Shown piece after piece: positions 42,720 to 48,305 of a DNA stretch of 64,000 bases; the first letter of the stretch is position 1; each line of letters begins with the position of its first letter. The stretch is taken from NCBI GenBank assembly GCA_020847095.1, contig JADLCR010000055.1, forward strand, positions 1 to 64,000. The letters are read 5' to 3'. A model generated the notes under the pieces. The model worked only from the letters and a program-made list of their open reading frames with translations. It had not been told where the DNA came from and did no database searches. The DNA is from Oligoflexia bacterium (GTDB taxonomy: Bacteria > Bdellovibrionota > Bdellovibrionia > JABDDW01). The position numbers were made by a program, and so were the translations under genes.

Positions 42720-43649
42720 ATGGAATTTAAACCGTTAGATGGAAGAGTTTTTCCGAGATTTTCTGGCCTTAAAACGTTTTTTAGACTTCCGGTCGCTGAA
42801 ATTTCCGATGACTTTGATGTCGCTATTTTTGGAGTGCCGTTTGATGGCGGAGCCAGCTATCGTGTTGGTCAAAGGTTTTCGCCCAGTAAAATTCGAGAGG
42901 TCAGTAGCCTTGGGCGAGGGTATCACTGGAGTCGCGACGCTCATTTTTCAAAATCGTTAAAAGTTGCTGATGTTGGAGACTCACCGACTGTTCCGATTGA
43001 TATTCAACAAACCTACTAAAATGTTTAAAAATTTGTTTCAAGTATTGTGAAAACAAAAAAAAGATTTATTGGTGTGGGTGTTGATCATTCCGTTACTCTT
43101 CCGTCGCTTCGAGCGCTGAAGAAGCAACTTAAAACGCCTCTGGCTTTAATACACTTCGATGCCCATTTTGATTCTTATCCACCGGCCTGGGATTGTGACT
43201 TTCATCATGGAACATTTGTCAGACACGCGGTTCAAGAGGGTCTCATTGACCCGAAACTTTCCCTACAAATCGGAATTCGAGGACCATTTTCTGTAAAAGA
43301 AGATGCAGCATTTTCAGAAAAACACGGAATAACGGTATGGGCCATGGAGGAGATCAGAAAGGCCGGCGTAGAAGGACTCGTTAAAAAATGGCCCAGCTTC
43401 GGAAATACTCCGGTGTTTTTAAGCTTTGATGTCGATTGCGTTGACCCCTCGCAAGCCCCGGGCACTGGTACTCCGGTTATTGGAGGGATGACTACTTATG
43501 AAGTGCAGCAGTTTTTAAGAAGTCTTCCTAAAATCAATCTTGTGGGAGCCGATGTTGTTGAGGTTATCCCGGCGTATGACCCGTCCGAGATTACAAGTTT
43601 ATTAGCAGTGGATGTGATGTTCGAGATTCTGAGTCATATGTCATTGTAG
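42720..43649 (+). pseudogene. Agmatinase/arginase-family gene with two in-frame TAA codons
   Basis: Reading one frame from ATG 42720 to 43649 gives a protein of agmatinase length (about 309 residues) interrupted by TAA at 43017-43019 and TAA at 43026-43028. The N-terminal part has FGVPFDGG and ADVGD. The part after the stops has the metal-site motifs DHS, DAHFD and SFDVDCVDP, all intact. Spacing across the stops matches the family, so nothing is inserted or deleted; both stops could derive from single-base changes, for example GAA to TAA. The second half could start at GTG 43047 but lacks a ribosome site. The enzyme would hydrolyse agmatine or a related guanidino compound. Confidence 0.8.
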
Positions 43650-43658
43650 GAGGAGATC

Positions 43659-44924
43659 ATGAACGAGAATCCTTTTGATGTTTTCGTGGCGCTCGACGGC
43701 CCGGTGTTAAACGGGTTCGAAGGGCCTGCTGGGGTATTAAGACTTAGATATTTTCCAAACCATTCGTATGAAGTGAAGGTCAAATTTTTTGATGGAGCTG
43801 CGGGTGGGCATGCTGTGCAAATCAATAAAGAAGGCACAATCGGGTACCTCGGAGGGCTCGCGCGTTGTGGCATTTTCTTCGACACAAAAACGCTCGAGGT
43901 TATTAAGCGCTTTTCGACCACCAATTACGGTTCCATTACGGTTCCTTATGAGAGCCAAACTCACGTTGTCTTTTTAACCGAGCGAACCTTTATAACCTCA
44001 ATCCGGGGGCGCTTTTATAAGGTGAATATTGATGACACTGATAACGGTGAAGATCTGGGGCCACACAATTGCGCATTACCTCATGCGGTTAAACTCTCAC
44101 CCTCGGGGCGTTATCTTTTTTACGGAGTCATGGATCACGATCTAAAAGGGTATGTGCGACAATTTGGAATTTTTGATCTTCAAGAGCCAGATCCACAAAA
44201 GCGAGCTCGCGTGATCGGGTTGGACGATACCGCTTGGCACTTTGCGATGCATCCAAAAGAAGACATCATTTATGCAGTTTCCGAATGTTACGACCCTCAA
44301 CCAGGAATCGGGGTTCCGTATGATTTTAACAATTTCGTTATTAGTTATCGGAAAAATTATGCTTGGAAAATCGATGGCCGAACGGGAAAAGAATTGGCCA
44401 AAGTTGTCATTCCTGCGTTTTTACCAAGTCATCTCACCAGTGACGTTGTCGTGATGGCTGACGAAAACGATACGATATATTACAACAGCTGCGCATCGAG
44501 TACGATTACCGGAGTGCAGTTTAAAACTTCTAAAGTCTGGCACATTGATGAGAAAGTGACGTTTTGGTATGTTCTTTTTCACCCCGGTGTTTGGCGGGCG
44601 GCTCTTGAAAATCTTCTTGAGGCGGCGACTCGTGCGCATTTATTTGGAAGTACCCATGTGCTTTTAAAGGCCCTTCGAACCTCGCGCGGAAGTCTCGTCG
44701 ACGGAAGTTACGGCCTGCAGTTAAGCCCCGACGGTAAACTCATGTTTTCTGCTCACCGAGGACTCAATCAAATTTGGGTTTATGATTTTCCTAGCTTTAA
44801 ATTGCGAAAAAAAATCAAACTTCCGCCGGCGCGGAAGTTTTTCAAACCCTATTTGGGAATTTTTGCCGACTATCGATTGGGCATGCATCACGCCTACCTT
44901 TCAAAAGCATCGGCTAATAGGTAG
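43659..44924 (+). CDS. Beta-propeller protein of unknown function
   Basis: Not recognised as a named family. 421 residues without a signal peptide, built from repeated strand patterns such as HAVQINKEGTIGYLGG, HAVKLSPSGRYLFYG, FAMHPKEDIIYAVS and GLQLSPDGKLMFSAHRG, which suggest a YVTN/WD40-type propeller. About 60 residues around 305-360 are more helical. A strong GGAGGAG site precedes ATG 43659. It lies nine bases after the agmatinase-like pseudogene and was probably transcribed with it, so it may be a partner of that lost enzyme. Confidence 0.65.
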   Translation: MNENPFDVFVALDGPVLNGFEGPAGVLRLRYFPNHSYEVKVKFFDGAAGGHAVQINKEGTIGYLGGLARCGIFFDTKTLEVIKRFSTTNYGSITVPYESQTHVVFLTERTFITSIRGRFYKVNIDDTDNGEDLGPHNCALPHAVKLSPSGRYLFYGVMDHDLKGYVRQFGIFDLQEPDPQKRARVIGLDDTAWHFAMHPKEDIIYAVSECYDPQPGIGVPYDFNNFVISYRKNYAWKIDGRTGKELAKVVIPAFLPSHLTSDVVVMADENDTIYYNSCASSTITGVQFKTSKVWHIDEKVTFWYVLFHPGVWRAALENLLEAATRAHLFGSTHVLLKALRTSRGSLVDGSYGLQLSPDGKLMFSAHRGLNQIWVYDFPSFKLRKKIKLPPARKFFKPYLGIFADYRLGMHHAYLSKASANR

Positions 44925-45438: not shown

Positions 45439-45846
45439 ATGATCAATAAAATGTTTTTTCTAACGTTAGTGTTATTCGCAAGTCATGCAAATGCTTGGCT
45501 TAACAAATGTACAGGAGAGCTCAGTTTTCCTGATTTGGGTCTCAGTATACCCATTGAAGCTCTGATTGAGGCACCAGGTTCGGTTTTCTCAGAGCAAAAA
45601 GAGGTAAGTGCCAGGATGACATTGGGCTATGGCGATCCGATTGTCTTTGAATCAGTGACTCAAAATGGTTCAGAGCTCCAATTTGAATTGAGAATTCTTG
45701 AGCAAGATCTTCTCGGCCCCAACCCCGTGGTTTTGACTTTGAGCTTTGACATTGAAACGGAAAAGGCCCGAGTCAATCTTGATAAAAACGGTGCGGAAGG
45801 TCTTGAGTCTGACCTTGAATGTCGTCCCTTACCAAAGGTTCTTTGA
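45439..45846 (+). CDS. Small exported two-cysteine protein 1
   Basis: Not recognised. About 135 residues: a signal peptide (INKMFFLTLVLFASHANA) and a beta-rich mature part with exactly two Cys, one at the start (LNKCTGEL) and one nine residues from the end (LECRPL). These are positioned to close the fold by a disulfide. ATG 45439 with AGAGG upstream is preferred to a GTG six bases earlier. First of five neighbouring genes sharing this layout; sequence identity between them is low by eye. Confidence 0.66.
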   Translation: MINKMFFLTLVLFASHANAWLNKCTGELSFPDLGLSIPIEALIEAPGSVFSEQKEVSARMTLGYGDPIVFESVTQNGSELQFELRILEQDLLGPNPVVLTLSFDIETEKARVNLDKNGAEGLESDLECRPLPKVL

Positions 45847-45852
45847 GGTCAA

Positions 45853-46281
45853 ATGAGGACCATTATAAAATCTTTCGCTCTTTTGACTTTTTATTCATCG
45901 GTTGTTTTTGGTGATGCTCAGTCAGCTTCTTATTTATGTCAAACCCGTCATATCCGGTCGTGGTTGATTATTAATCTTAATGTCAATGGGAGTCACGAAG
46001 CTGACCTCGATTTTACTCAATTAGTTAAAGACACGGGCCAAAGTCAACTTCCCTTTAAATATTGCCTTAGCTGCACCGATGAATCCGCGGGCGATTCAAT
46101 TGTTTTTGAGAGCTCATCCGGTGGCGATAACCCGTTAAGGACTTACCGTGTTATGTTTGTGACTGGACGAGCCCACGCTTATCTCACCATTTCGGAGCCC
46201 GACAAGCCAAATCTTGACTTTGAATTTATATGTGTCAAGCGAAAGCCCGGGGAGTTTATCACCTTTCATTTTAAAAATTAA
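45853..46281 (+). CDS. Small exported two-cysteine protein 2
   Basis: Not recognised. 142 residues with a signal peptide (RTIIKSFALLTFYSSVVFG). Mature part: SYLCQTR at the N-terminus and FEFICVKR near the C-terminus, with an additional CLSC pair in the middle. The pattern of alternating strands (WLIINLNV, YRVMFVTG, AYLTIS) suggests a beta-barrel or sandwich. It starts seven bases after the previous gene, so probably the same transcript. Confidence 0.66.
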   Translation: MRTIIKSFALLTFYSSVVFGDAQSASYLCQTRHIRSWLIINLNVNGSHEADLDFTQLVKDTGQSQLPFKYCLSCTDESAGDSIVFESSSGGDNPLRTYRVMFVTGRAHAYLTISEPDKPNLDFEFICVKRKPGEFITFHFKN

Positions 46282-46295
46282 TATTGGAGGATTTA

Positions 46296-46703
46296 ATGGA
46301 TCGCTTTGGTTTAAATTTCTTGGTGTTCTTAGGCATGAGTCTTTCGCTTGGTTTCAGTGCTCACGCAGGGGAGCTAATTTGCGAGTCTAGTAAGTTTCCA
46401 GGAAAGTTAACAGTTAGGTTGGATCGCCATGATGACCGTCGTTCAGAAGCACTTTTAGAGTTGTCAACTGGTCCAGCAGGAACGATCGGGATCAAACTGT
46501 TTCAAGTTTTTTCAAGTGACCAAGACAATGGCGAAATCGGCCCCTACGATGTTTTTCAAAATACCCTTGATAACGGTGATCAATCGACTCTCATTCAAGT
46601 TGTTTATGAACGACAACGCCTTTTGGCTGTTTTGACTATTGAAAAAGGTGGGGGCAAGAAGCCCCAAGGCCTAATTTTAAGCTGCATACGAGTTGAAAAC
46701 TGA
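46296..46703 (+). CDS. Small exported two-cysteine protein 3
   Basis: Not recognised. 135 residues with a signal peptide (RFGLNFLVFLGMSLSLGFSAHA) and mature part beginning GELICESS and ending LILSCIRVEN, so the two Cys sit at the first and last strands. ATG 46296 is set by GGAGG six bases upstream; an earlier in-frame TTG at 46284 is rejected. The strand pattern is GKLTVRLD, EALLELST, LIQVVYE and LLAVLTIE. The layout of the Cys pair recalls small beta-barrel inhibitors such as MliC, but no decisive motif is present. Confidence 0.66.
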   Translation: MDRFGLNFLVFLGMSLSLGFSAHAGELICESSKFPGKLTVRLDRHDDRRSEALLELSTGPAGTIGIKLFQVFSSDQDNGEIGPYDVFQNTLDNGDQSTLIQVVYERQRLLAVLTIEKGGGKKPQGLILSCIRVEN

Positions 46704-46765
46704 TTTGGTGTCAGAAATTAATGTAGGTTCTTAACTTAAACGCAAAATAAACGAAGGGGAGTAAT

Positions 46766-47152
46766 ATGCAAAAGACTTTGGTGAGTTTAATTTTATTAAT
46801 AGGGGTCGGAATTTCCCTGGCGGGTTCCGTTGGAAACGCCATGAGCGGTGTTTTCTGTGTCGGATTGCAGCGCGACGGCTCTCCAACCTTCTTTTTAGTG
46901 AAATCGCTGCTGCCCGAATTGAACAACGACATCGTGATCCCCGATAGCCCTGAGGCGCAAATTAAAATCGGCGATGCTCCGTTTGTTAAAATGAACTTTG
47001 TCTTATTAGATGGAGAAACATGGGTCTTTGAATCAGCGAGGACTGATGTGATCATTACTTTGCGAATTAGACCAGACTATTCAGAGGGTGTCGTAATATT
47101 ATCTGACGCTGTAAGAAAAACTGAAGTGAGCCTGGTATGTTTGGTAGAATAG
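46766..47152 (+). CDS. Small exported two-cysteine protein 4
   Basis: Not recognised. 128 residues with a signal peptide (QKTLVSLILLIGVGISLAG...). The mature part begins GVFCVGLQ and ends VSLVCLVE, again one Cys at each end. The middle is rich in Val, Ile and Phe in strand-like spacing. A 62-base gap separates it from the previous gene, long enough for its own promoter. AAGGGGAG lies before the ATG. Its last 16 bases overlap the next gene. Confidence 0.65.
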   Translation: MQKTLVSLILLIGVGISLAGSVGNAMSGVFCVGLQRDGSPTFFLVKSLLPELNNDIVIPDSPEAQIKIGDAPFVKMNFVLLDGETWVFESARTDVIITLRIRPDYSEGVVILSDAVRKTEVSLVCLVE

Positions 47153-47505
47153 TCGCTGGCCTGATTACACTATTATTAGCTCCTAAATTAAGCGCTGAGA
47201 ACTTTGCTTGCGGTTCGGGGCGGACTCACTGGTTTTTTAAAGTCATTGTTGAAGTTGATTTTCTTAATGTCTCGAGGTCAAAGGCGACGGCCATTAAGTG
47301 GAATAGAGTTGATCAGGATTTTTATTATCAGCACCATCTTTATGCTTCTGATACTGATAATGAAAAAACTCTGACGATCAGTTTCAAGCCTTCCCAAGAG
47401 GCGGCCCGACTTCTTTTTGTGCCCTCTCGGGGCTTACTCTACTACATTGCCAATGACTGGGACCAAGTTTATTACGAAGATCCATTCGACTGTGTGCCTA
47501 TTTAA
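47137..47505 (+). CDS. Small exported two-cysteine protein 5
   Basis: Not recognised. 122 residues with a signal peptide (FGRIVAGLITLLLAPKLSA). The mature part begins NFACGSG and ends FDCVPI, so the Cys pair of the series is kept. Aromatic residues are frequent (HWFFKV, DFYYQHHLY, LLYYI). It starts within the end of the previous gene, which implies coupled translation. It ends 17 bases from the convergent SDR gene. Confidence 0.65.
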   Translation: MFGRIVAGLITLLLAPKLSAENFACGSGRTHWFFKVIVEVDFLNVSRSKATAIKWNRVDQDFYYQHHLYASDTDNEKTLTISFKPSQEAARLLFVPSRGLLYYIANDWDQVYYEDPFDCVPI

Positions 47506-47522: not shown

Positions 47523-48305
47523 TTAGAAATTTCGTACAATCCGTGAAATGAGATTGGGAAACGCCAAGTATAGAGAGTACATCCAGCGTAATAACAAAGG
47601 ACGAATGATAAGAAGTTTTTCTTTTTCAATTCCTCGAGCAATTATTTCTCCTGCTTCGTCTTCAGATAGAGTTTTTAGAATTCTTGAAATTCCCGGAATC
47701 CGCTCTTCGCTACCTGGATTTGCTGTCCAATAGGTGCTTGCGACCTTTCCTGGCATGGCCAACAGGACCTTGATTTTACTCTTATTGAGATCCGAACGAA
47801 GGGCTTCGGTAAGTCCGCGCATTGCCCAGCGCGCTACGGAATAACTCGTTGAGTGTGGAAAGGGCACTAATGATGCTGGTGACGTGAGGTTAACAATTAT
47901 TCCGGAATTTCGCTTTCGCATTGAAGTAATAAAACTCTGAGTCACATTGAAGGCTGCAAAATAAGGAAGCGCAGTCATCTCATGAAGGTCTTTGACGGTT
48001 GTCTCGGAAATATCAATAAATCGGCCGCTACCAGCGTTATTCACTATTAAATCAGGGCAACCTTGATTTAATAGAATTTGAGCACATGCCTGCCGAGTTT
48101 TTTCGCCGTCAGAGAGATCCGCTGAAACCACGACACAAAATTCTGCTCCCACGCCACGGCACTGTCTTTGTACTTCATCGAGTTCTTGGCGTGAGCGAGC
48201 GATGAGAATGAGATTTGCCCCTCTTCGGGCGCAAGCTCGTGCAACGGCCGCTCCAATGCCTCGCGAGGCGCCTGTGACCAATACTGTTTTTCCGCTCAGC
48301 TTCAT
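47523..48305 (-). CDS. Short-chain dehydrogenase/reductase
   Basis: An NAD(P)-dependent oxidoreductase of the SDR family, 260 residues. The nucleotide motif is TGASRGIG near residue 11, followed by NNAG near residue 90, the catalytic Ser region NLTSPAS, and YSVARWAMRG with the YxxxR/K position. The motif reads YSVAR, so the usual catalytic Lys is Arg, which may weaken activity. The C-terminal 30 residues are hydrophobic and basic (LLLRWMYSLYLAF), suggesting membrane contact. The substrate is unknown. It lies 14 bases after alaS on the same strand. Confidence 0.88.
   Translation of the reverse strand: MKLSGKTVLVTGASRGIGAAVARACARRGANLILIARSRQELDEVQRQCRGVGAEFCVVVSADLSDGEKTRQACAQILLNQGCPDLIVNNAGSGRFIDISETTVKDLHEMTALPYFAAFNVTQSFITSMRKRNSGIIVNLTSPASLVPFPHSTSYSVARWAMRGLTEALRSDLNKSKIKVLLAMPGKVASTYWTANPGSEERIPGISRILKTLSEDEAGEIIARGIEKEKLLIIRPLLLRWMYSLYLAFPNLISRIVRNF

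Follow-up and report, generated by a model that had tools for sequence, protein, structure and literature searches.

Five adjacent small exported proteins with a cysteine near each end form an apparently lineage-specific cassette in an Oligoflexia bacterium

Lysozyme inhibitors of the MliC/PliC type (PF09864, COG3895) are small exported proteins that fold into eight-stranded antiparallel β-barrels, in which a disulfide joins strands 1 and 8 (PMC5507604, PMC2267010). Two sequence motifs are characteristic of MliC, SxSGAxY in loop 4 and YxxxTKG in strand 6 (PMC5507604). Neisseria ACP is a non-lipidated protein with a mature length of 103 residues that also forms an eight-stranded barrel, with a disulfide between Cys38 and Cys121 connecting the first strand to the last (PMC5507604). 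ACP inhibits lysozyme even though it lacks the MliC motifs, so a barrel of this fold can act as a lysozyme inhibitor without them (PMC5507604).

The locus described here lies in a 64,000-nucleotide stretch of DNA from an Oligoflexia bacterium (contig JADLCR010000055.1), referred to below as the window. An earlier note on this DNA had read five ORFs with signal peptides on the forward strand at 45439-47505, and all five are present at those coordinates (Table 1), in frames that codon use favors. A sixth gene, P0006, which the note overlooked, ends 26 nt 5′ of P0001 and opens the cassette. The intergenic gaps from P0001 to P0004 are 6, 14, and 62 nt, P0004 and P0005 overlap by 16 nt, and a Shine-Dalgarno-like purine-rich stretch sits right upstream of four of the five genes. 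Given these short spacings and Shine-Dalgarno-like stretches, the cassette genes are likely carried on a single transcript. A promoter and terminator scan of the locus returned no signal above chance, and the G+C content of the cassette (42.9%) differs only slightly from that of the window (46.6%).

Table 1. Genes of the cassette and its surroundings in the window, followed by other small exported proteins of the class with a cysteine near each end. Cysteines of P0001-P0005 are numbered in the precursors.
Feature	Location	Strand	Description
Arginase-family gene	42720-43652	+	PF00491; two in-frame stops
Left flank	43659-44924	+	conserved gene for 421 aa; resembles lactonase-type beta-propeller below threshold; sister genus has it at 70% identity
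P0006	45068-45412	+	opens cassette; 114 aa, exported; six Cys in mature part; without relatives; not of the two-end-Cys type
P0001	45439-45846	+	135 aa; signal peptide to ~A19; Cys24, Cys128; VFES at residues 69-72
P0002	45853-46281	+	142 aa; signal peptide; Cys29, Cys127 plus Cys71/Cys74; VFES; additional C-terminal tail
P0003	46296-46703	+	135 aa; signal peptide to ~A24; Cys29, Cys130; AlphaFold2 model with eight strands
Antisense ORF	46711-47055	-	114 aa; antisense to P0004
P0004	46766-47152	+	128 aa; signal peptide; Cys31, Cys125; VFES; most divergent of the five; low-confidence model
P0005	47137-47505	+	122 aa; signal peptide; Cys25, Cys119
Right flank	47523-48305	-	short-chain-dehydrogenase-like, convergent; 46% identical in sister genus
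Other two-Cys protein	L072:4725-5213	-	small exported, Cys near each end
Other two-Cys protein	L096:1172-1576	+	small exported, Cys near each end
Other two-Cys protein	L039:243-707	-	small exported, Cys near each end
Other two-Cys protein	L040:16815-17207	-	small exported, Cys near each end
Other two-Cys protein	L029:18470-18916	-	small exported, Cys near each end
Other two-Cys protein	L029:19041-19676	+	small exported, Cys near each end

The annotated frame is the best of six by codon use in all five genes, in P0004 only by a narrow margin because of an ORF on the opposite strand. This antisense ORF has a codon score equal to that of P0004 and is probably a by-product of overlapping frames. 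The codon score of P0006 is low, yet its frame is still the best of six. A Sec-like signal peptide, judged by eye, begins each of the five proteins, and this pattern suggests that the cassette proteins are exported. None of the five has a lipobox, and the best explanation of their sequences is that they would be soluble proteins and not lipid-anchored.

The feature that drew attention to these genes in the earlier note was a cysteine near each end of the protein, the two about 100 residues apart. This layout is found in all five, enclosing a strand-rich domain of ~100 residues, with 94-104 residues between the first and last cysteine and 2-15 residues beyond the last, while P0002 departs from the simple pattern through its extra cysteine pair and C-terminal tail. 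We compared the cassette with a background sample of stretches totalling ~655 kb of the same genome, where the both-ends layout was present in 4/4 flagged cassette proteins and in 3/45 other small exported-like ORFs; the background script missed P0002 by its own rules, and thus four of the five were flagged. The corresponding Fisher p-values, 1.7e-4 with the four flagged proteins and 2.6e-5 when all five are counted, are approximate because the signal-peptide rule of the script is a crude heuristic. One further protein of this genome (L029:18470-18916) has a nearly identical layout that falls outside the script cut-offs. The layout is not unique in the genome, but five instances within 2.1 kb are far from chance.

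By sequence, the five are ORFans, without detectable relatives in the collections searched. No relatives of the cassette proteins were found beyond the locus in their own genome, or in 60 related genomes, 144 class genomes, and 369 phylum genomes. Single-protein scans, which detect close relatives only, gave no real match in GTDB species contigs or in viral contigs, and a joined query of all six proteins found nothing real outside the locus in the class, phylum, and collection searches. The earlier note had called for an HMM built from the five; over 143 class genomes it recovers these five genes only. Matches to Pfam, NCBIfam, and PHROGs were at chance level, and a PDB sequence search with the five-protein profile, P0002, and P0003 (E up to 10) returned no ACP chain and no genuine relative. 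Several candidate matches were rejected: a profile match to 7ue2 (E = 6e-7) is the sum of four sub-threshold pieces of a repeat protein, a WD40 match in the PDB sequence search was attributed to chance, and those borderline matches of the genome searches that were inspected proved to lie out of frame or to belong to unrelated proteins, one of them rRNA-methyltransferase-like.

Comparison with a sister genus of the same family (G002) indicates that the cassette is lineage-specific, since both flanking genes are retained there in convergent orientation, 2 bp apart (L007:13594/13597) and with no cassette between them. The window has the same pair separated by 2.6 kb, with the cassette in between. 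This difference reflects either a gain in the lineage of the window or a loss in the sister genus. In a second genome of the family (G001), the left-flank gene was unmatched. The cassette edges carry no mobile-element signature and no convincing insertion-site repeats. Next to the left-flank gene, the arginase-family gene is interrupted at codons 100 and 103, three codons apart, and both halves match PF00491; it is either a pseudogene or the product of an assembly error.

The five had been proposed to be fast-evolving paralogs of low sequence identity. The low identity is borne out, as pairwise BLAST and phmmer searches among the five gave nothing significant; the paralogy is favored by some lines of evidence and not by others. 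Global alignment z-scores, from shuffles that held the cysteines fixed, average 1.08 within the five and 0.11 in comparisons with other small exported proteins (p = 0.007, in a test that takes the pairs as independent, though they are not). P0001, P0002, and P0004 each contain the tetrapeptide VFES at a similar position, and 199,076 background residues contain it twice. Because VFES was chosen after looking, the fair control is the frequency with which any 4-mer is common to at least three of five random segments, which is 0.8% of random sets. At the DNA level, P0001 and P0004 match at 15/16 nt under the VFES codons, a length of match that is not unusual for this region. Leave-one-out profiles ranked the omitted protein, among 113, at 4 for P0001, 2-8 for P0002, 7-8 for P0003, 40-58 for P0004, and 1-3 for P0005, none of them significantly. 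Together with the tandem order of the genes, these data suggest, but do not prove, that the five probably share a common ancestor, with the case weakest for P0004.

We modelled P0003 and P0004 with AlphaFold2, using a shallow input alignment that consisted of the five proteins themselves. The P0003 model (pLDDT 82, pTM 0.75) is an eight-stranded meander, with strands at 2-8, 11-19, 28-34, 40-50, 61-69, 74-82, 87-94, and 101-110 of the modelled chain. In mature numbering, Cys6 is placed in strand 1 and Cys107 in strand 8, and a disulfide between them is plausible because the first and last strands adjoin in a closed meander barrel. Closure of the barrel is itself suggested by how the strands are ordered and by the fold matches. 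Foldseek searches of the PDB with the P0003 model gave a best E of 0.015, with none below 0.001 and TM ≤0.53 among the best 50 matches, which are mostly up-and-down barrels: lipocalins, the FABP-like UnaG, avidins, GID4, and a designed beta-barrel. A MoaF-like barrel is among the matches to viral models. The P0004 model is of low confidence (pLDDT 55), with seven tentative strands, those at both ends in places similar to P0003; its fold-search matches were discarded as meaningless at this pLDDT. The single disulfide-closed fold proposed earlier for all five is predicted for P0003, the one protein that modelled well, and P0004 is compatible with it.

The explanation that best covers these observations, which we judge to have about an even chance of being correct as a whole, is a lineage-specific cassette of diverged tandem duplicates that fold as disulfide-tied barrels and bind and block targets. 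The cassette would comprise one six-cysteine exported protein and five small exported proteins, probably co-transcribed. One domain, copied in tandem and since diverged, most likely gave rise to all five, a duplication to which weak but concordant signals point. This domain would be a closed eight-stranded up-and-down β-barrel, a confident prediction for one of the proteins, with a disulfide made in the periplasm tying the first strand to the last. MliC/PliC, Neisseria ACP, and other bacterial inhibitors with a barrel fold suggest, by analogy, the most likely mode of action: the rigid barrel would display variable loops, which would bind and block macromolecules encountered extracellularly or within the envelope. 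Candidate targets are wall hydrolases or proteases, which could belong to the cell itself, to a rival, or to prey, and the diversified copies would serve several of them. Given the barrel predicted for P0003, of the general type found in bacterial lysozyme inhibitors, the cassette has the look of a young group of secreted binding proteins that changes quickly. It is also possible, although on balance doubtful, that the five constitute a new family of disulfide-closed barrels, restricted to one lineage, whose members arose by tandem expansion at one site and diverged until hardly recognizable under selection for different partners, as a secreted inhibitor or effector arsenal on an MliC/ACP-like scaffold and possibly as part of a class-wide repertoire of unclassified two-cysteine exported barrels.

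The resemblance to MliC raises the question of whether the five are true MliC/PliC-type lysozyme inhibitors, or ACP-like equivalents, that shield the cell from lysozymes, including any that it would itself deploy if it were a predator. The P0003 model and its cysteine placement fit the published barrel description, and the proteins have a similar mature length and are predicted to be exported and soluble. In contrast, a regular-expression search found neither SxSGAxY nor YxxxTKG in any of the five, in agreement with the earlier description of an MliC-like layout without MliC motifs, the layout that published MliC/PliC proteins and ACP share (PMC5507604). PF09864 had no match in P0001-P0006 at E up to 10 and none in 143 class genomes, while three control genomes were positive, and no entry described as MliC, PliC, or ACP is among the best 50 PDB fold matches of P0003. 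The cassette proteins also differ from MliC/PliC in their somewhat longer domain and in occurring as five genes in tandem. ACP is similar in being not lipidated and free of MliC motifs, with a cysteine toward each end, but here too the tandem of five genes differs, as does the lack of detectable sequence similarity to PDB chains. Membership of the five in MliC/PliC is not supported, and a lysozyme-inhibitor role of this kind is improbable. More improbable still is that the five are carriers of small ligands, similar to lipocalins or avidins. While lipocalins, UnaG, and avidins are the top PDB matches of P0003 and calycin-type barrels (lipocalins, avidins, MoaF-like) its best fold matches overall, the scores are weak (TM ~0.3-0.57), and there is neither a sequence signature nor any indication of a ligand site. 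The biotin pocket of avidins makes use of Trp residues, P0003 has no Trp, and a carrier would not normally be expected to occur as five diverged copies in tandem.

A different alternative holds that the five are not homologous at all. They would be unrelated small exported ORFans with one disulfide each, gathered in an operon by a shared regulatory need, the two terminal cysteines being a common periplasmic solution. The pairwise and leave-one-out profile scores, none of them significant, agree with this. Profile comparison of two other two-cysteine families of the class (A6 and A7) also linked them neither to the five nor to each other, which indicates that the layout can arise in proteins without detectable sequence relation. 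However, the similarly placed VFES of three proteins, within-set z-scores above those of the controls, and the similar cysteine spans in five consecutive genes argue against independent origins, and we consider this alternative unlikely, though to be taken seriously. If it were correct, the locus would be an operon for small exported proteins with nothing unusual about it. If instead the five share a barrel, as we favor, an exported inhibitor-type scaffold would have undergone duplication and diversification at a single site in one lineage, retaining its topology and disulfide but almost none of its sequence similarity. The cassette would then offer concrete genes for studying which extracellular molecules these bacteria bind or block, and would point to a wider unclassified stock of two-cysteine exported proteins in the class.

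The same genome, the sister genus, and a further family of the class contain additional small exported proteins with two cysteines (Table 1). They resemble the five in having a signal peptide and a cysteine near both ends of a ~100-residue domain, and differ from them in being single genes, some with relatives. None of those scanned matched a Pfam family. A joined query of four of these proteins found matches in 27/143 class genomes, and in two such families both cysteines are retained in the aligned relatives.
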